From NCBI GenBank assembly GCA_019116025.1, contig DXCM01000060.1:1-64000 (forward strand): a DNA stretch of 64,000 nt, read 5' to 3'. The first letter of the stretch is position 1, and each line of letters begins with the position of its first letter. This document shows, piece after piece, positions 26,568 to 61,877 of this stretch. The stretch comes from Candidatus Companilactobacillus pullicola (lineage in GTDB: Bacteria; Bacillota; Bacilli; Lactobacillales; Lactobacillaceae). The translations under genes were made by a program, and so were the position numbers. The notes under the pieces are model-generated. The model was given only the letters and a program-made list of their open reading frames with translations. It had not been told where the DNA came from and did no database searches.

Positions 26568-26595
26568 AGTTGAAAAGGGAATAGGAGCTAAACTC

Positions 26596-26774
26596 CCGTC
26601 CTCCGTGAAAATTGGGAATGCTGTTGGAACGCTATGGGCACGATTTGGAGCTAATTATTTTACACTTCGTGCAAAATAATGGATCTTCAAAGTCGGCCTC
26701 ATTGTAATCGGCAAAGCAGATAACAATGATCTCATAGCTGAACGCATTCCCAATTTTCACTCCGGACTAAATAG
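26596..26774 (+). repeat. Palindromic element family A, copy A1
   Basis: This element of about 179 bases begins 29 bases after the upstream stop. The outer stem pairs GTGAAAATTGGGAATGC with GCATTCCCAATTTTCAC. Inside are one long hairpin capped by ACAC-TTCG-TGC with arms ATTATTTT/AAAATAAT, and a second hairpin CATTGT...ACAATG. GCTATG and CATAGC can add an inner junction stem. It is about 90 percent identical by eye to A2 and A3. No open reading frame is apparent. Confidence 0.9.
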
Positions 26775-26850
26775 CATGTTGATTTTTAGTTTGAAGTAAA
26801 TTATCTAATTCAATATATTTCACTTCTAAAAATATTTTTAAATCAAGAAG

Positions 26851-26892
26851 GCCTTCATATCAACCAGTTTGGTCAATATGAAGGCTTTTTTA
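26851..26892 (+). terminator. Terminator after element A1
   Basis: GCCTTCATAT pairs with ATATGAAGGC (loop 15) and is followed by six T. It is about 285 bases after the DXS-like stop, so the transcript would include A1. The rest of the 410-base space shows no gene. Confidence 0.8.
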
Positions 26893-26927
26893 GTACCAAT
26901 AATTCTAAATAGAGAATTAATTTTTTA

Positions 26928-34491: not shown

Positions 34492-34517
34492 GGATTACAG
34501 TATTAGTTCTATTTTTA

Positions 34518-34656
34518 AATAACCATAGTTCTATGCAATATAGTGGAAATGAGCAACTCCTTCCGGTTAAGTCAACTAATCTCTGCCGGCACTTCGTTGC
34601 CGACTGAGATTAGTAGTCTTAATCCTCGGGAGCTGAGCGCCCTTGCTTCGCTCTCT
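34518..34656 (-). repeat. Palindromic element family B, copy B1
   Basis: Read on the minus strand it begins AGAGAGCGAAGC three bases after the ndh stop. It holds a long hairpin (CTCC, ATTAAG, ACTAATCTC, GTCGGCA and their complements, tip loop ACGAAG) and ends in the family tail TTTCCACTATATTGCATAG with GAACTATGGTTATTT. Compared with B4, the stem ACTAATCTC/GAGATTAGT is ACTTTCTC/GAGAAAGT, a paired change. The rest of the 34377-34659 space holds only the terminator. Confidence 0.88.
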
Positions 34657-34659
34657 GAT

Positions 34660-35844
34660 TTAGATCGTTCCTTTTTTAATAGCTGTCTTCAATCCGGCTA
34701 TTTCCATAATTCCTCTATCTGCTGATACGTGTTTCAATAATGAAGCAATTGTACCTTTGAATTTGAGGTTCTTACTGATTTCAGCGATACCATGGTTTTG
34801 ACCTAATGATGCGACTGTACCTAATGATGTGTAAGTATATGGTTTCAAGTCTTTGCCATTTAGAGCGGCCGCAATGTTAAAGGCTGCTCCTGTTCCTTCG
34901 GATGTTGCTAATTGTCCTGTTGTTGGATATGGACGTTCTTCACCCTTAGGGATAATTGCAGAATCATCACCGATAAAGTAGGCTTCTGGATGTGCTTCTA
35001 GATTTAGGAATTCGGTTGTCATAACACGATTTCTTCTAGCTTCAATACCTGAATTTGCGATAACGTCACTACCACTTACTCCGACTGTCCAGATAATTGT
35101 GCTTCCTTCAACACTCTTTTCAGTGTCGCCATCCATGTAGACAACGGCTTGTTTGTCGATTCTCTTGATTTTGGCACCAGTCAATAGCTTGATACCGTTC
35201 TTATCTAGATAATCAACGGCGTAGCTAGCAAGGTTTTCATCAAACATTGGTAGAATTCTTGTTGCCATTTCTACACAAGTTACTTTGATTTCTGGAACAT
35301 CGTATTTTGCTTTGAGAATCTTAACGGTATCAACTAATTCACCAAGAATTTCAACTCCAGTGAATCCGGCACCACAGACGATAATACTTAAGTCTTTAGG
35401 ATCTTGTGATTCTTTATAGTTAGCAATATTTTTGTTAATTGTCTTATAAATATTTTGTGCTGTTTCCAAATCTTGAAGGATCAAGGCATTTTCACTAGCA
35501 CCTTCAAGTCCGAAGTCCTCTGAACGAAAGCCCAAAGAAACTACGATATAGTCATAAGTAATAGCCTCATGATCTGTAAATTCAACTGTTTTGTTATCTA
35601 AGTCGAGCTTAGAAACAGTTGCCTTGATGAAGTTAACATTTGAAGGTAGAACTGAACGGATATCAAAACTTACTGCATCAGCACGGTTGGTGCCGGCTGC
35701 AATAGTATGTAAAGCAGTTTTTTCTACATGCTTTTCATTTTTATCGATTAAATCAATTTGTGTTCCTGCTGGAGTGCTCTTGGCCAAATCACGAGCAGCT
35801 CTCAAGCCACCGTAACCAGCGCCTAGTACTAAAATGTGTGCCAT
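34660..35844 (-). CDS. ndh: Type II NADH dehydrogenase (NDH-2)
   Basis: The 394-aa non-proton-pumping NADH:quinone oxidoreductase passes electrons from NADH to menaquinone. The FAD fold is HILVLGAGYGGLRAARDL from residue 3 and the NADH fold is LSIIVCGAGFTGVEILGEL near 155. YFIGDDSAIIP near 290 and YPTTGQLATSEGTGAAFNIA are also conserved. The C-terminus is a membrane-binding segment. AAGGAG precedes the ATG. With menA, the polyprenyl synthase and cydABCD in this window it would form a minimal aerobic chain. Element B1 starts three bases after its stop. Confidence 0.9.
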   Translation of the reverse strand: MAHILVLGAGYGGLRAARDLAKSTPAGTQIDLIDKNEKHVEKTALHTIAAGTNRADAVSFDIRSVLPSNVNFIKATVSKLDLDNKTVEFTDHEAITYDYIVVSLGFRSEDFGLEGASENALILQDLETAQNIYKTINKNIANYKESQDPKDLSIIVCGAGFTGVEILGELVDTVKILKAKYDVPEIKVTCVEMATRILPMFDENLASYAVDYLDKNGIKLLTGAKIKRIDKQAVVYMDGDTEKSVEGSTIIWTVGVSGSDVIANSGIEARRNRVMTTEFLNLEAHPEAYFIGDDSAIIPKGEERPYPTTGQLATSEGTGAAFNIAAALNGKDLKPYTYTSLGTVASLGQNHGIAEISKNLKFKGTIASLLKHVSADRGIMEIAGLKTAIKKGTI

Positions 35845-37762: not shown

Positions 37763-37809
37763 AAAAAGACCAGTTCGGCAAGTGATTTTAGTTGCCTTAC
37801 TGGTCTTTT
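37763..37809. terminator. Terminator downstream of the GT2 gene and elements A2/A4
   Basis: AAAAGACCAGT pairs with ACTGGTCTTTT, with GGCAA/TTGCC inside. The minus-strand side has the longer U-run. The glycosyltransferase stop is about 570 bases away, so the transcript would span both A elements. Confidence 0.85.
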
Positions 37810-37857
37810 GGAGGTTGATTCACTAAATTTGATTTACAGACATGGTTAATGTATGCC

Positions 37858-38029
37858 GTCGGTAGTAGAAAATCTGTGGGCCACTGGAACGTGGTGGACA
37901 CGACTTGAAGCTAATAATTTTACACTTCGTGCAAAATTATGGATCTCCAAGTTCGGTCTTCTGGTAACCTTGCTGCGCAAGCCAACCAGAATTTCACCAC
38001 TGAGGGCCCACAGATTTTCTACTACCGAC
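37858..38029 (+). repeat. Palindromic element family A, divergent copy A4
   Basis: Its core (GACACGA, TTGAAGCTAAT, ATTTTACACTTCGTGCAAAAT, GGATCTCCAA) matches A1-A3. The outer stem is a different sequence: GTCGGTAGTAGAAAATCTG plus TGGGCC at 37858-37882 pairs perfectly over 25 bp with 38005-38029. The second hairpin is also different (TTCTGGTAACCTTGC with GCAAGCCAACCAGAA). The fold is thus kept while the sequence changed. Confidence 0.88.
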
Positions 38030-38167
38030 TATATCCTGATCCTAATATTACTGACTAAATTCACAGTGTTTGACTATTTAAATACCTATTTTTGAATTAA
38101 AAGTAATTTTTAAAATAGAAAGGATAGTGAATTAAATAATTCATATCAAAATAAATAAGTAAAGTGC

Positions 38168-38345
38168 TGTTTAGTCCGGAGCAAAAATTGGGAATGCGTT
38201 CAGCTATGAGATCATTGTTACCGGCTTTGCCGGTTACAATGAGGCCGACTTTGGAAATCCATTATTTTGCACGAAGTGTAAAATAATTAGTTCCAAATCG
38301 TGCCCATAGCGTTCTAACAGCATTCTCAATTTTTGCGGAGGACGG
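38168..38345 (-). repeat. Palindromic element family A, copy A2
   Basis: On the minus strand it reads like A1 and A3: CCGTCCTCCGCAAAAATTG to TTTTTGCTCCGGACTAAACAG. It starts 31 bases after the glycosyltransferase stop. It has the same outer stem, TTCG-capped hairpin and CATTGTAACCGGC/GCCGGTAACAATG hairpin, the latter perfectly paired here. It lies about 140 bases from A4, in opposite orientation. The 700-base space from the TetR start to the glycosyltransferase end holds only these elements and a terminator. Confidence 0.9.
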
Positions 38346-38375
38346 CAAGGATACACTATAACCGATTTTTGCTCT

Positions 38376-39308
38376 CTATTTTTTGTCCTTAACGATATAG
38401 ATAGGGCGTTTTTTAACTTCAAGAAAAATTTTGCCGATGTATTCTCCAAGAATACCGATACTTAATAGTTGTATCCCACCTATGAGAAGTACGATGGAAA
38501 CTATTGAGGCCCAGCCATTTACGCTACTTAATGGACTAACTATTTTTCTAATGATAATTGCAATAATAGCGACTATTGAGGTAATTGAAAAGAGTGTTCC
38601 CATCCAAGTGGCGAACATCAGAGGTCCTTCTGAGAAATCAACGATACCTGTAACGGCGTACTTGAATAGTTTCCAGAAATTCCAAGACGTACTACCAGCT
38701 ACTCGTTCACGATTCTTGTATGGTAAGTACTTGGTCTTGAATCCAACCCAACTGAAAATTCCCTTTGAGAAACGGTTATACTCGGTCATTGATTTGATGG
38801 CTTCTACCATTTGACGGGTCATTAAACGATAGTCTCTGGCGCCAGGGATGATTTTAGTTTGCGACATTTTGTTGATGACTTTGTAAAAGCTATTGGAGAA
38901 GAAAGAGATGATCTTGTTTTCACCTTCACGGTCCATTCTAGCTGTACCGACGCAGTCATATTCCTTTTCTTCAAGGATATCGAACATCTCCGGCAACATT
39001 TCTGGTGGGTCTTGTAGATCGACATCCATAACGGCGACATACTCACCAGTGACTTCATTAAGGCCAGCATAAAGGGCAGCTTCTTTACCAAAGTTTCTGG
39101 AGAAGGAGATGAAATGCACTTCATCGCTATGATCTTTTTGAAGGTCTTTCAAAATAGAGTAAGTCTTGTCTTTTGAACCATCATCGATAAACCAATATTC
39201 TAAATTGAACTTATTGGTTTGTTCTTTGATTTTAGTCATTGCGTCATAATAAATATTAATAGATTCTTGTTCGTTGAAACACGGAACGATAATAGATATA
39301 GTTTTCAT
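38376..39308 (-). CDS. Family 2 glycosyltransferase (polyprenyl-phosphate type)
   Basis: The 310-aa enzyme of the GtrB/DPM1-like type moves a sugar from a nucleotide donor to polyprenyl phosphate at the inner membrane face. The catalytic domain has IIVPCFNEQESINIYY near 5, DDGSKDKTY near 42, the DxD-like VMDVDLQDPPEM near 94, and two C-terminal membrane helices (MFATWMGTLFSITSIVAIIA, VSIVLLIGGIQLLSIGILGE). I chose the ATG at 39306-39308 because the conserved fold starts there; the ribosome-binding site (GGAAAAA) is weak. Elements A2 and A4 follow. Confidence 0.88.
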   Translation of the reverse strand: MKTISIIVPCFNEQESINIYYDAMTKIKEQTNKFNLEYWFIDDGSKDKTYSILKDLQKDHSDEVHFISFSRNFGKEAALYAGLNEVTGEYVAVMDVDLQDPPEMLPEMFDILEEKEYDCVGTARMDREGENKIISFFSNSFYKVINKMSQTKIIPGARDYRLMTRQMVEAIKSMTEYNRFSKGIFSWVGFKTKYLPYKNRERVAGSTSWNFWKLFKYAVTGIVDFSEGPLMFATWMGTLFSITSIVAIIAIIIRKIVSPLSSVNGWASIVSIVLLIGGIQLLSIGILGEYIGKIFLEVKKRPIYIVKDKK

Positions 39309-45009: not shown

Positions 45010-45024
45010 AATATGCTTAAGTTT

Positions 45025-45203
45025 CCGTCCTCCACAAAAATTGGGAATGCTGTTGGAACGCTATGGACACGATTTGAAACTAATTATTTTACACTTCGTG
45101 TAAAATAATGGATTTCCAAAGTCGGCCTCATTGTAACCGGCAAAGCCGGTAACAATGATCTCATAGCTGAACGCATTCCCAATTTTTGCTCCGGACTAAA
45201 TAG
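45025..45203 (+). repeat. Palindromic element family A, copy A3
   Basis: This 179-base copy is nearly identical to A1. Differences in the outer stem are paired: GTGAAAATTGGG with CCCAATTTTCAC in A1 becomes AAAAATTGGG with CCCAATTTTT here. The CATTGTAACCGGC/GCCGGTAACAATG hairpin is perfect. It lies between the stop of the 108-aa gene and the next terminator. The rest of the 45010-45350 space shows no gene. Confidence 0.9.
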
Positions 45204-45263
45204 AGCTCTGATTGTTTGGTTGAAGATAAATTGATTTTAGTTCATTATTTTTCATTCAAAAAA

Positions 45264-45317
45264 TAAAAAAAGGTGTTCATATCAGCCATTGATCTAGCCA
45301 ATATGAACACCTTTTTA
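45264..45317. terminator. Bidirectional terminator between element A3 and cydC
   Basis: AGGTGTTCATAT pairs with ATATGAACACCT, with an A-run before and five T after. It can end both the plus-strand transcript through A3 and the cyd operon. Confidence 0.85.
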
Positions 45318-45335
45318 GTATTCTTAAATATTTTT

Positions 45336-58592: not shown

Positions 58593-59183
58593 TTGCAAAA
58601 AAGAAATGCTTATCGCACAGCAATTTTAGGAATTCTGATGGCGATTATTCTTGTGCAATCAATGGTGCCATTTTTAGGCTTTATTCCAACAGGTTTTATT
58701 AATATAACAATTATCCACATTACCGTTATCGTAGCGGCAATTGTGCTTGGACCTAAGAATGGAGCTATCGTTGGATTAGTCTGGGGAATTGGAACAATAA
58801 TCCGTGCCTTCACCAGTCCAACATCAATTATTGATACAACGGTATTTACCAACCCTGTTGTAGCAGTTTTACCCAGAGTAGCAGTAGGATTGATTGCTGG
58901 TTGGATCTACTTGTGGTTTAAAAATCATACAAACAAAAAAGTGCTAGGAATGGCAGTGGCGTCAGGCGTTGGTTCACTAGTTAATACCGGATTGGTTCTA
59001 GGATTGATGCGTATGATGTATGCCAGCACAATGGCACAGGCATATGCCACACAAACGGATCTTTTAAATAAATTATTGTTAGTAATTGTAGGAACCAACG
59101 GAGTTCCCGAAATGATAGCGGCCATCATTATAGCGCCAGCAATTTCCAGTGCTATTTTGAAGACTAATAAGTTTTTGGATTAG
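58593..59183 (+). CDS. ECF transporter substrate-binding (S) component
   Basis: The 196-aa membrane protein has six helices. The N-terminal motif YRTAILGILMAIILVQSMVP is typical of ECF S components, which capture vitamins and deliver them to the shared EcfAAT module. The loop GPKNGAIVGLVWGIGTIIRA near 50 is common to several S families. I cannot assign a substrate; the shape is nearest to PanT/folate-like S components. No riboswitch is seen in the 139-base upstream space. The start is TTG (58593) behind AGGATG. Element B2 starts within its stop codon. Confidence 0.82.
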   Translation: MQKRNAYRTAILGILMAIILVQSMVPFLGFIPTGFINITIIHITVIVAAIVLGPKNGAIVGLVWGIGTIIRAFTSPTSIIDTTVFTNPVVAVLPRVAVGLIAGWIYLWFKNHTNKKVLGMAVASGVGSLVNTGLVLGLMRMMYASTMAQAYATQTDLLNKLLLVIVGTNGVPEMIAAIIIAPAISSAILKTNKFLD

Positions 59184-59335
59184 AGAGCGTAACAGGGGCG
59201 GTCAGCCCACGAGGATTTGCCTAAGTCTTGGAATCGCACGCGTACTTTGCGGGCAATTTCAAGACTGTAGCAAACCGCAATAGGTTACCCCTGTGTAGCT
59301 CGTTTCCACTATAAAAAATAGAACAATGGTTATTT
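59182..59335 (+). repeat. Palindromic element family B, copy B2
   Basis: It begins AGAGAGCGTAACAGGGGCGG inside the stop codon of the S-component gene. A 3' arm (GGTTACCCCTGTGTAGCTC) pairs with that start. The inner hairpin joins AGTCTTG with CAAGACT and GATTTGC with GCAAAC. It ends in the family tail TCGTTTCCACTATAAAAAAT plus AGAACAATGGTTATTT. Confidence 0.87.
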
Positions 59336-59355
59336 TGTTGAAGAAAAGCCACAAT

Positions 59356-59398
59356 AAAAAAGCAGTGAGAGAACTTTGTAGTTTTCTCACTGCTTTTC
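59356..59398. terminator. Bidirectional terminator between elements B2 and B3
   Basis: AAAAGCAGTGAGA pairs with TCTCACTGCTTTT (inner GAAC/GTTT), with A and T runs at both ends. It ends both convergent transcripts after their B elements. Confidence 0.9.
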
Positions 59399-59410
59399 TG
59401 TATTCTAGTT

Positions 59411-59514
59411 TTTATAACCATGGTTCTCTGCAATATAGTCAAAATGAGTTCCGTAGGCCAGATTCCAGTACTTAGGCAAATGCTCGGAATCTAAGCGGGC
59501 CTGCGCCACTCTCT
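59411..59514 (-). repeat. Palindromic element family B, short copy B3
   Basis: On the minus strand it begins AGAGAGTGGCGCAGGCC, overlapping the stop codon of the GatD-like gene. It forms a stem AGATTCC/GGAATCT with GGCC/GGCC outside and ends in the tail TATATTGCAGAGAACCATGG plus TTAT. It is like B5 but lacks the inner 50-base hairpin. Confidence 0.85.
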
Positions 59515-60187
59515 ATTTGGTAACTGCAGCCATGCGTTCTTTATGAGATTGGATAATTTTGTCGGCGATAGCACGAGCAACATTTTCATTCTTCAAAATG
59601 GGACCGTGAGAATAACTTCCAATAACGTTCTTGTAACGCATACCTTCTTGCTTTTCATCAGGGTTGTTACCGTAGCCTTCAATCATTGTACCGAAAGGTT
59701 TAAGCATCTTTTTATCATCAAAGTAAGTACGGCCACTGTGGTTCTCAAAGGCTCTTACAGTACCCCATTCAGTCTTATATTCTGTATCGCCGATCATACG
59801 ACTATCGGCCTTGAAAACGGTGTGTAATGGAAGAATATCGAGGCATTGGATAGTTTCACCACCACTTGTTTGGTAATACTTGCCAAGAAATTGATAACCA
59901 CCACAGATGCAAAGCATAGGTTTGTCGGCTTCGATATAATCTTTAATAGTTTGACGGTGTTTTTGAATATCAGTTGCGACAACTGATTGTTCGAAATCTT
60001 GACCACCACCGAAGAATAGGAAATCGTAGTCAAAGGCATTGAAGTCCATATCTAGACTGATGTTATCGACTTGAGTGTCATAACCTTGTTCTTTGAGAAG
60101 AAAGCTTAGGATTTTAACATCGCCGCTGTCTCCATATGTATTCATTAAATCTTCGTATAAGTAAGCAATTTTAATAGTATCAGACAT
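59513..60187 (-). CDS. gatD: GatD-like type 1 glutamine amidotransferase
   Basis: The 224 aa belong to the CobB/CobQ-like class I amidotransferases: FFGGGQDFEQSVVATDI near 57, nucleophile Cys in PMLCICGGYQFLGKYY near 93, and His in IGSYSHGPILKNE near 188. The size and YLYEDLMNTYGDSGDV start match GatD, which with MurT amidates lipid II glutamate (D-isoglutamine in peptidoglycan). murT normally sits directly upstream; here the upstream neighbour is divergent pepC and no murT is in the window. TGGAG precedes the ATG. Element B3 overlaps its stop. Confidence 0.85.
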   Translation of the reverse strand: MSDTIKIAYLYEDLMNTYGDSGDVKILSFLLKEQGYDTQVDNISLDMDFNAFDYDFLFFGGGQDFEQSVVATDIQKHRQTIKDYIEADKPMLCICGGYQFLGKYYQTSGGETIQCLDILPLHTVFKADSRMIGDTEYKTEWGTVRAFENHSGRTYFDDKKMLKPFGTMIEGYGNNPDEKQEGMRYKNVIGSYSHGPILKNENVARAIADKIIQSHKERMAAVTK

Positions 60188-60265: not shown

Positions 60266-61588
60266 TTGACAAAAGAAATCAATAAAGAAATTTTAGCAGA
60301 TTTTAACAAGAACTTAAATCAAGATGCAAGTAATAATGTTTTGAAGAATGCTGTAGCACAAAACGGTATTTACAAAGCTTCAGAAGATCCAGAGGTAAAA
60401 ACTAAGTTGAACCCATCATTCAACATTATGGTTAACACCGGAAAAGTCTCCAACCAGAAGCAATCTGGACGTTGTTGGCTATTCTCAGCACTCAATACTT
60501 TGAGAACTGAATTTGCTTTGAGAAATAATATGAAAGATTTTGAATTATCTCAAAATTATTTATCATTTTGGGATCGTCTAGAAAAATCTAATGCCTTTTA
60601 CCAACAAGTTTTAGAAACCGCTGATTTACCAATTGAAGATCGTAAGGTAAATGACTCTTTCAGTAGTCCTAATGGTGATGGTGGTTTCTGGAGTTCTGCC
60701 GTTAACTTGATCAACAAGTACGGAGTTGTTCCTAACTATGTAATGCCAGAAACATCTGCTTCTGAAAATACACGAGAATTCGATGCTGTTCTAAATAAAT
60801 TATTACGTAAAAACGGAATTGAATTGCGTCAATTAGTTAAGGATGGAGCTGCTCAAGCAGATATTGATAAACGCGTCAACGAAATGTTGTCAGAAGTTTA
60901 TAAAATTTGTGTCTACTCATTCGGCTTGCCACCAAAGAACTTTGAATTGTCATTACAAACAGATAATGACAAGTTAATTGAGGAAGCAAGTATTACACCA
61001 AAGGATTTTCTCAAGAACTACTTTACAACTAATGTGAATGATTTTGTAACAATTGAGAATTCTCCACAAAAGAGTAAGAAATATCATCAAGTCTATTCTA
61101 TCAAGAATGCGAATAACGTTATCGGTGGGGAAGAACATAAATTCTTGAATCTACCAATGGAACGTCTTGAAGAATTAACAATCCAACAATTGAAGAACAA
61201 TCAACTAGTTTGGTTCGGTAATGATGTTTTGAAACAATCAGATCGCAAGAAAGGCTACTTGTTAGGTGACCTTTATCAATATGACGAACTATTTGGTATT
61301 GATAGCCAAATTGAAAAAGGCCTTGCTCTAGATTATGGTGAAGCTGAAGTTTCTCATGCAATGACAATTACTGGAGTTAATTTATTGAACGGACAACCTA
61401 ATCGTTGGAAAGTCGAAAACTCTTGGGGCGAAGATAACGGCGTTAACGGTTACTACATGATGGACGAAAAGTGGTTCAAAGATAACACCTATGAAGTTAT
61501 TATCAATAAGAAATACTTAACTGATGAAGAATTGGCCGAGTTCAACCAAGAACCAGTCGTACTACCAGCTTGGGATGCCTTAGCATAA
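60266..61588 (+). CDS. pepC: Aminopeptidase C (bleomycin hydrolase family)
   Basis: The 440-aa papain-like cytoplasmic aminopeptidase helps lactobacilli use casein-type peptides. Catalytic Cys is in NQKQSGRCWLFSALNTLR near 70, His in GEAEVSHAMTITGVNLL near 362 and Asn in WKVENSWGEDNGVNGYYMM near 383. The C-terminal arm (EPVVLPAWDALA) is present. I chose the TTG at 60266, six bases after AGGTG; the GTG and ATG just upstream lie inside that site. Divergent from gatD; elements B4 and B5 follow its stop. Confidence 0.94.
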   Translation: MTKEINKEILADFNKNLNQDASNNVLKNAVAQNGIYKASEDPEVKTKLNPSFNIMVNTGKVSNQKQSGRCWLFSALNTLRTEFALRNNMKDFELSQNYLSFWDRLEKSNAFYQQVLETADLPIEDRKVNDSFSSPNGDGGFWSSAVNLINKYGVVPNYVMPETSASENTREFDAVLNKLLRKNGIELRQLVKDGAAQADIDKRVNEMLSEVYKICVYSFGLPPKNFELSLQTDNDKLIEEASITPKDFLKNYFTTNVNDFVTIENSPQKSKKYHQVYSIKNANNVIGGEEHKFLNLPMERLEELTIQQLKNNQLVWFGNDVLKQSDRKKGYLLGDLYQYDELFGIDSQIEKGLALDYGEAEVSHAMTITGVNLLNGQPNRWKVENSWGEDNGVNGYYMMDEKWFKDNTYEVIINKKYLTDEELAEFNQEPVVLPAWDALA

Positions 61589-61592
61589 AAAT

Positions 61593-61716
61593 AGAGAGCG
61601 AAGCAGGGGCGGTCAGCTCCCGAGGATTAAGACTACTTTCTCAGTCGGCAACGAAGTGCCGGCAGAGAAAGTTGACTTAACCGGAAGGAGTTGCCCCTGC
61701 GTAGCTCGTTTCGGAT
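61593..61716 (+). repeat. Palindromic element family B, copy B4
   Basis: It begins AGAGAGCGAAGCAGGGGCGG five bases after the pepC stop. The inner hairpin (ATTAAGACTACTTTCTC, GTCGGCAACGAAGTGCCGGC, GAGAAAGTTGACTTAA) closely matches B1 with paired differences. The outer arm GCCCCTGCGTAGCTC pairs back. It stops at CTCGTTTC without the tail, where B5 begins. Confidence 0.88.
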
Positions 61717-61865
61717 AGAGAGTGGAACAGGCCCGCTTAGATTCTGAGCATTTGCAGGACTTTGCGAATTGACTGCGTAGCAGGCGGTTTGCGAAGTCAG
61801 GCAAAGCACAGGAATCTGGCCTGTGGAACTCGTTTCCACTATAAAGCATAGAACAATGGTTATTT
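61717..61865 (+). repeat. Palindromic element family B, copy B5
   Basis: It begins AGAGAGTGGAACAGGCC directly at the end of B4. The hairpins are AGATTC/GAATCT, GACTTTGCGAA/TTTGCGAAGTC and ACTGC-GTA-GCAG. It ends with the family tail TCGTTTCCACTATAAAGCAT plus AGAACAATGGTTATTT. B4 and B5 thus sit in tandem and share one tail. Confidence 0.88.
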
Positions 61866-61877
61866 AACAATAAATAA

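Follow-up and report, generated by a model that had tools for sequence, protein, structure and literature searches.

Results

Two facing palindromes between GT2 and TetR

What are the two long palindromes that face each other between a GT2 gene and a TetR gene of Candidatus Companilactobacillus pullicola, and what keeps their stems paired? The window, the whole stretch of DNA analysed here, comprises 64,000 nucleotides (positions 1 to 64,000 of contig DXCM01000060.1). A first-pass annotation had described one of these palindromes, A4, as a diverged copy of a repeat family A (A1 to A3) whose structure, not sequence, is maintained in the 3' region of the GT2 gene, which implied a role in RNA.

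A4 gave a full covariance-model match at 37846–38048 on the minus strand (cmsearch, 187.7 bits, model positions 1–195). Its 25-bp outer stem was recovered exactly as annotated, the two arms of 25 nt (37858–37882 and 38005–38029) being 100% complementary. The stem encloses a hairpin with a conserved base, the core common to A1–A3, and a variable tip (37897–37958, approximate limits drawn from the fold and the family folds), followed by a second hairpin (37959–37991, from the fold and the B family fold). The outer stem and the second hairpin indeed differ in sequence from those of A1–A3 and keep their pairing in the predicted fold, the energy of which is −89.2 kcal/mol as written and −99.2 kcal/mol for the complement. 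A4 had been said to share only the central hairpin core with A1–A3; the core is shared, but the junction motifs are common too, as the A-family profile detected A4 across 37880–38051 (E 9e-23). Alignment of A4 with A1 and A3 gave an 85-nt block with 81–82% identity.

The partner of A4, A2, is an A unit at 38155–38355 on the plus strand (186.6 bits; 38138–38348, opposite strand, in the first-pass annotation). Sequence and fold place the arms of its outer stem at 38174–38198 and 38320–38343, and their pairing is imperfect. The two units do face each other, across a spacer (38049–38154) of 106 bases between the model matches, or 144 bases between the outer stems. They lie near GT2, although not specifically in its 3' region: the location is the entire GT2–TetR intergenic region. 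On the A side, the outer end of the element probably lies at 38356–38376 and reaches the GT2 stop codon, as does the corresponding end at another site of the genome, C96:88614; the alignment with the empty site of a related genome, G019, resumes 27 nt beyond A2. On the B side, the end is expected within 37773–37845, about 37 nt outside A4 by analogy with two clean sites (37–38 nt), the G019 alignment stopping 76 nt outside the unit. The other two A units of the window, A1 (26586–26786, 186.6 bits; previously 26589–26796) and A3 (45015–45215, 185.6 bits; previously 45018–45232), are solo units on the minus strand. A1, A2, and A3 are 88–91% identical to each other.

Two other kinds of repeat were observed in the same sequence. 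A second large family of palindromic intergenic repeats, with ends GAGAGCG...AGCTCGTTTCC, also occurs in inverted arrangement (34510–34661, 59181–59516, and 61588–61872). A recurrent ATATCAACC...GGTTGATAT stem characterises terminator-like hairpins found within or beside many spacers and also at 26700–26900 and 45240–45330 of the window; letters similar to this stem are found in the B outer ends.

A4 represents a separate family

We searched the source genome (2.93 Mb, 99 contigs) with both units. The A2 query returned 172 first-look candidates and the A4 query 205; 40 copies of each type, the query itself included, were scored, near full length and, with the query omitted, at 88–97% and 89–96% identity, respectively. 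These searches (205 candidates and 40 scored copies for A4) rule out A4 as a one-off divergent copy, and the copy number excludes chance pairing at this locus. A4 is a member of its own family, which we named B, each type having many copies; what had been taken for a diverged A copy is a different type of unit and the partner of A.

A sample of 809 kb of the source genome (the window and seven contigs, 28% of the assembly) contained 85 A/B matches with the sequence profiles, fragments included, and 80 matches at E ≤ 0.1 with a covariance model trained on 54 copies from this genome and other genomes of the genus. Extrapolation to the whole genome gives some 290 units. Each unit is a palindrome of 175–200 nt with a three-way junction, a conserved junction core and stems that vary freely.

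Covariation of the stems

The covariation test that the first-pass annotation had proposed was performed on the 54 copies with shuffled and slid controls, and the signal was overwhelming. In this alignment, which spans subfamilies and counts inherited changes many times, 94.8% of the cells were paired against 74.0% after shuffling, changes had occurred on both sides of 41 of the 48 consensus pairs, and cells with double changes numbered 575 against 182.7. The covariation score was 0.584; shuffling reduced it to 0.208, and slid partners reached no more than 0.140. The number of further pair types was a weaker measure (95 against 89.4, a value reached by 12 of 500 shuffles). A set of 28 further matches, including 21 from other genera, scored 0.686 against 0.174, in an alignment fitted to the covariance model and with one row also present in the model. 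Stem sequences turn over without loss of pairing, which upholds one half of the statement that structure and not sequence is maintained; the other half does not hold for the junction core, whose sequence is conserved across genera.

Double changes were also visible in single copies. Among 51 copies of family A, we counted 18 double-sided changes confined to one copy, against a mean of 3.8 after shuffling, along with 32 one-sided single-copy types. The copy A11_L003 exhibits two of them in its outer stem (A-U to C-G and U-A to A-U) and four further differences among the 141 enclosed positions, and some of these double changes, including those of A11_L003, cannot pass through G-U. Family B provided 15 single-copy double changes against 6.2, partly from two divergent copies, and 47 one-sided ones.

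Wobble pairs and strand polarity

In RNA, G-U is a common pair and a common intermediate. Here G-U accounted for about 2% of the cells in columns with a Watson–Crick majority, and for 3.6% and 4.0% when all columns were included, a few of these being mostly G-U. The raw excess of G-U over A-C (126 vs. 24 and 124 vs. 35) seemed to indicate an RNA strand; as proof it was weakened by a control restricted to the pairs predicted on both strands, in which G-U and A-C types numbered 20 and 13 in family A and 24 and 26 in family B, and the corresponding cells 60 and 23 in A and 47 and 35 in B. When the other strand was folded, a matching number of A-C cells appeared (121 and 123). Rfam gave no match at gathering scores in the 64-kb window, which rules out a described Rfam family, and only two chance-level matches over 37780–38400 (E 3.1 and 3.4).

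A nearly wobble-free covariation without clear strand polarity fits better with a DNA palindrome and arm-templated copying than with selection on a 3'-UTR RNA. The RNA or 3'-UTR role implied at the outset finds no support: G-U is rare, its types do not clearly outnumber A-C mismatches, double changes occur in single copies, and gap types are near background (see below). Template switching, in which one hairpin arm is copied from the other, predicts both double changes and perfect stems (PMC8794818). A similar pattern would be expected under strong selection on a DNA hairpin. Some selection on one strand may also act, given the excess of G-U over A-C cells and the few columns in which G-U prevails.

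Paired architecture and genomic context

In the source genome, B nearly always adjoins an inverted A or A-like unit. We examined 47 multi-unit clusters from the 809-kb sample and 31 further loci of this genome, after dropping clusters near sequence ends: 39 were "−+" (both units read outwards on the modelled strand), one was "−−", none was "+−", and seven held three or four units, so that 39 of the 40 two-unit clusters had the same outward orientation. All 23 neighbouring two-unit pairs read from the table of named records (within 900 bases) were likewise "−+". Among loci from other genera we found five "−+" and one "++", and one "−+" in the genome G011. Spacers measure between about 35 and about 500 bases, and in the source genome their conservation lies mainly near the units. 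Those between paired units had no gene-size cargo in the loci read; one three-unit cluster encloses a mechanically called ORF of 100 aa. At the GT2–TetR locus, A4 forms one end and A2, inverted relative to it, the other end of a single composite miniature element, B–spacer–A.

The elements are mainly intergenic. Among 48 clusters, 28 lay between co-directional, nine between divergent and nine between convergent genes, with two undetermined, against a background of 258, 113, and 99; the ORFs used were called mechanically, and five clusters overlap one. These proportions, divergent gaps included, are about those of the background and rule out a 3'-UTR-specific element. Solo A units exist as well. 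Between co-directional genes, 12 were sense and three antisense for the modelled strand, in a small sample from the source genome. One of them, C5:45735, keeps the apparent collapsed remains of a B end.

Empty sites, remnants, and target duplications

At the GT2 3' site of the three nearest relatives (G019, G028, and G001), a terminator is followed by the TetR gene and no units are present. We compared more broadly 29 sites of the source genome with both flanks present in 873 kb of G019. Six carried units by profile, five clear collapsed remnants and two the other palindrome family, and 16 were without clear trace, two of these being doubtful by eye. The 17 multi-unit sites comprised two with units, three with remnants (C5:1131, L045, and L021), two doubtful (C5:32353 and C96:94214) and ten traceless. 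The 12 single-unit sites comprised four with units, two with remnants (C34:45018 and C5:8738), four traceless and two occupied by the second, GAGAGCG...AGCTCGTTTCC family (C5:25175 and L003). The profile alone would have scored absence at 15 of the 17 multi-unit sites and 23 of the 29 in total; the more sensitive look lowered both figures. The remnants show that some absences in G019 are losses there and not gains in the source genome (C5:1131, L045, L021, C34:45018, and C5:8738). Remnants and traceless sites together thus indicate that gain and decay are both at work.

Base-by-base alignment of 20 sites yielded two clean pair sites, C96:88614 and L020, with 8-bp direct repeats. In both, the element ends 37–39 nt outside the units, and 7 bp of the 8-bp repeat are readable in the empty site. 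The duplication at the solo site C49:30168 is suggestive and less clear, and the remaining aligned sites gave no readable duplication. A positive overlap was obtained in four of the 20 sites; that of L003 (41 bases) is uninterpretable, with the other palindrome family present there in G019. Direct repeats around 41 pairs numbered 84, against 63 in shuffled flanks (sd 7.8); this excess being only modest, the claim of target duplication rests on the empty sites.

At the A1 site we found a diverged copy in G019, a partly deleted one in G028, and none was seen in G001. The A3 site retains stem-only remnants of another subtype in G019 (E 8e-5) and G028. Stem-only remnants at L114:2919–3025, L100:16621–16708, and L166:7047–7139 have lost the core and have a nearly perfect outer stem. 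Folds of 13 remnants favoured neither selection nor templating.

Candidate movers

Reverse transcriptase (PF00078) gave no hit in the source genome and was present in four of the ten genomes searched; on its absence from the source genome, a reverse-transcriptase driver was set aside. A weak A match (14.5 bits) was observed near a reverse-transcriptase locus of another species (L189).

The Y1 transposase family (PF01797) had hits in six of the ten genomes searched, those of the source genome, G019, and G028 being partial or broken, and none in G004 and G023, both of them rich in units. The A and B profiles found no unit in the Y1 loci of the six genomes. With genes that are broken, absent or without an adjoining A/B unit, a Y1 driver was discarded. 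One broken Y1-type fragment, L194 (G000:C67:26328–26618), was read in its context and no A/B unit was found beside it.

The ISL3 transposase (PF01610) was detected in nine of 12 genomes, with no hit in the source genome, G028, and G011, although draft assemblies may lack copies of insertion sequences. An ISL3-type insertion sequence adjoins GT2 at the GT2 3' site of G027 (L144). The outer ends of the A/B elements carry a loose terminal repeat, with tips that are not uniform, and this repeat resembles, by eye, one end of the L144 ISL3-like element. An automatic search for terminal repeats on the ISL3 loci recovered unrelated repeats only. The sampled sequence contained no gene or insertion sequence flanked by these ends; for the A end, the profile was too weak as a test. 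The B-end profile gave weak matches elsewhere, three in the source genome and one in G019 (E 0.58 or worse), one of them being the far end of a solo element.

Distribution among lactobacilli

DNA similarity to A4 was detected in 17 of 36 genomes of the genus. Of 201 Lactobacillaceae genomes, 49 matched the covariance model at E ≤ 0.001, and these came from 11 of the 40 genera covered; 12 candidates were scored per genome, so that copy numbers there are lower bounds. With stricter filters, eight of 246 genomes of an order-wide sample matched at E ≤ 1e-4, all eight being Lactobacillaceae, and one of 299 genomes of a phylum-wide sample matched, the source genome itself. An exact 21-base pattern was found in 34 stretches: 26 from Companilactobacillus, three from Lactiplantibacillus, two from Levilactobacillus, two from Pediococcus argentinicus, and one from an uncultured Lactobacillus. 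Across genera the core is conserved and the outer stem is not.

The GT2 3' site of four other species (L135, L138, L141, and L143) is occupied by palindromes of the same plan and unlike sequence, with weaker model matches (E 2e-7 to 3e-11), and is a hot spot or a permissive site. Relatives in phages (A query) and plasmids (B query) were set aside, as no match was obtained at blastn sensitivity.

Discussion

A probable mobile element with palindromic ends

We consider it probable that A4 and A2 are the inverted ends of a composite non-autonomous DNA mobile element, inserted between GT2 and TetR in the Companilactobacillus chromosome and moved in trans, with arms templated on each other. A putative transposase would act in trans on the paired palindromic ends, and at least some solo A units may be old pairs whose other end has collapsed. 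The arms would be kept complementary chiefly by arm-to-arm copying in replication and/or by the need for a DNA hairpin or cruciform in movement, rather than by selection on a 3'-UTR RNA. A bolder version, which we regard as decidedly unlikely, makes this a new type of mobile element: the large three-way-junction palindromes would themselves be the transposition ends, and movement or replication would proceed via a folded hairpin or cruciform, one arm serving as template for the other. Stem sequences would then be free to drift, with complementarity restored in each round.

Among the alternatives, a possible if doubtful one is that a specific DDE insertion sequence, for instance of ISL3 or IS6 type, gave rise to the elements as miniature derivatives, with the palindromes as passengers or helpers of movement. 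Both types make 8-bp duplications, the length seen at the clean sites, and the likeness of the terminal repeat to the ISL3-like end beside GT2 in G027 points the same way. However, this likeness was judged by eye only, no insertion sequence with the same ends occurs in the sampled sequence, and PF01610 is missing from three genomes, the source genome included, as far as drafts can tell. We hold it unlikely that the units are structured RNAs, transcribed in a 3' UTR or as small RNAs, with compensatory changes driven by selection on the RNA fold. The three-way junction, junction motifs conserved across genera and very strong covariation would be expected of such RNAs; the consensus folds are lower on one strand (−135.6 vs. 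−125.5 and −153.0 vs. −137.3), G-U cells exceed A-C cells, and solo A units are mostly sense to co-directional genes. Against this stand the low G-U frequency and the balance of G-U and A-C types, the A-C cells gained on folding the other strand, the position of the two units of a pair on opposite strands, gap contexts that follow the background, divergent ones included, and the lack of an Rfam match.

The elements could also be old, vertically inherited repeats that persist by gene conversion, decay by collapse and are no longer mobile. This finds some support in the six of 29 sites that carry units in G019, the five more with collapsed remnants, and the presence of A1 in both G019 and G028, but 14–16 of the 29 sites are traceless in G019, two of them with clean target duplications, which makes it very unlikely. 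Single-strand transposition of the REP/REPIN kind, by a Y1 (HUH) enzyme that recognises hairpins, is in our view the least probable of these readings. Target duplications of 8 bp such as those seen here are not expected of Y1 enzymes; moreover, Y1 hits are partial or broken in the source genome, G019, and G028 and lacking in unit-rich G004 and G023, and the A and B profiles are blank in Y1 loci. In its favour are the PF01797 hits in six of ten genomes and the arrangement itself, in which two palindromes lie inverted across a short spacer, like those of REP dimers (PMC3733652).

Double compensatory changes usually count as the strongest argument that an RNA is functional. The extreme and nearly wobble-free covariation of the A/B elements, with little strand polarity, visible in single copies and spread over several genera, is therefore a warning to RNA-discovery pipelines. 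It also offers a natural setting in which to ask whether DNA template switching, and not selection, can keep long stems perfect. With these elements, the mobile repertoire of commonly used food bacteria gains a widespread class.

Comparison with known systems

We found no earlier description of the A/B elements in the literature searched, subscription papers being outside its scope. In Enterococcus faecalis, which belongs to a related family, the EFAR repeats are foldable miniature insertion sequences of about 170 bp and in this respect resemble the A/B elements; their folds, L-shaped and of variable assembly, set them apart. REPINs are REP palindromes paired in inverted orientation across a short spacer. 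REP dimers are multi-copy, non-coding inverted palindrome pairs with a short spacer, mainly intergenic, and REPs of CGTC type have no known transposase (PMC3733652). The A/B elements share the intergenic, multi-copy, non-coding and paired arrangement with REP dimers and REPINs. However, their units measure 175–200 nt and have three helices, against palindromes of 20–40 nt, and they show 8-bp target duplications at clean sites; neither the Y1 loci of six genomes nor the broken copy of the source genome linked a RAYT/Y1 gene to the repeats.

With MITEs the A/B elements have in common that they are short, multi-copy (80 units in 809 kb), and devoid of a transposase gene, and that recent insertion is accompanied by target duplication (8 bp at two clean sites and a suggestive third among the 20 aligned). 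The bacterial folding elements RUP, NEMIS/Correia, YPAL, and QMITE2 are likewise short and non-autonomous, fold and duplicate their target (PMC2229807, PMC10969869). Unlike these, the A/B element has two large palindromic ends of different type, and across a bacterial family its stems vary in sequence while remaining almost perfectly complementary. Template-switch maintenance of hairpins makes the same prediction of double changes and perfect stems, but it was proposed for RNA genes (PMC8794818), whereas the present hairpins lie in multi-copy mobile DNA. By kind, then, the A/B element is MITE-like and REPIN-like, being non-autonomous, palindromic and paired, and both its unit and the scale of its covariation are new.
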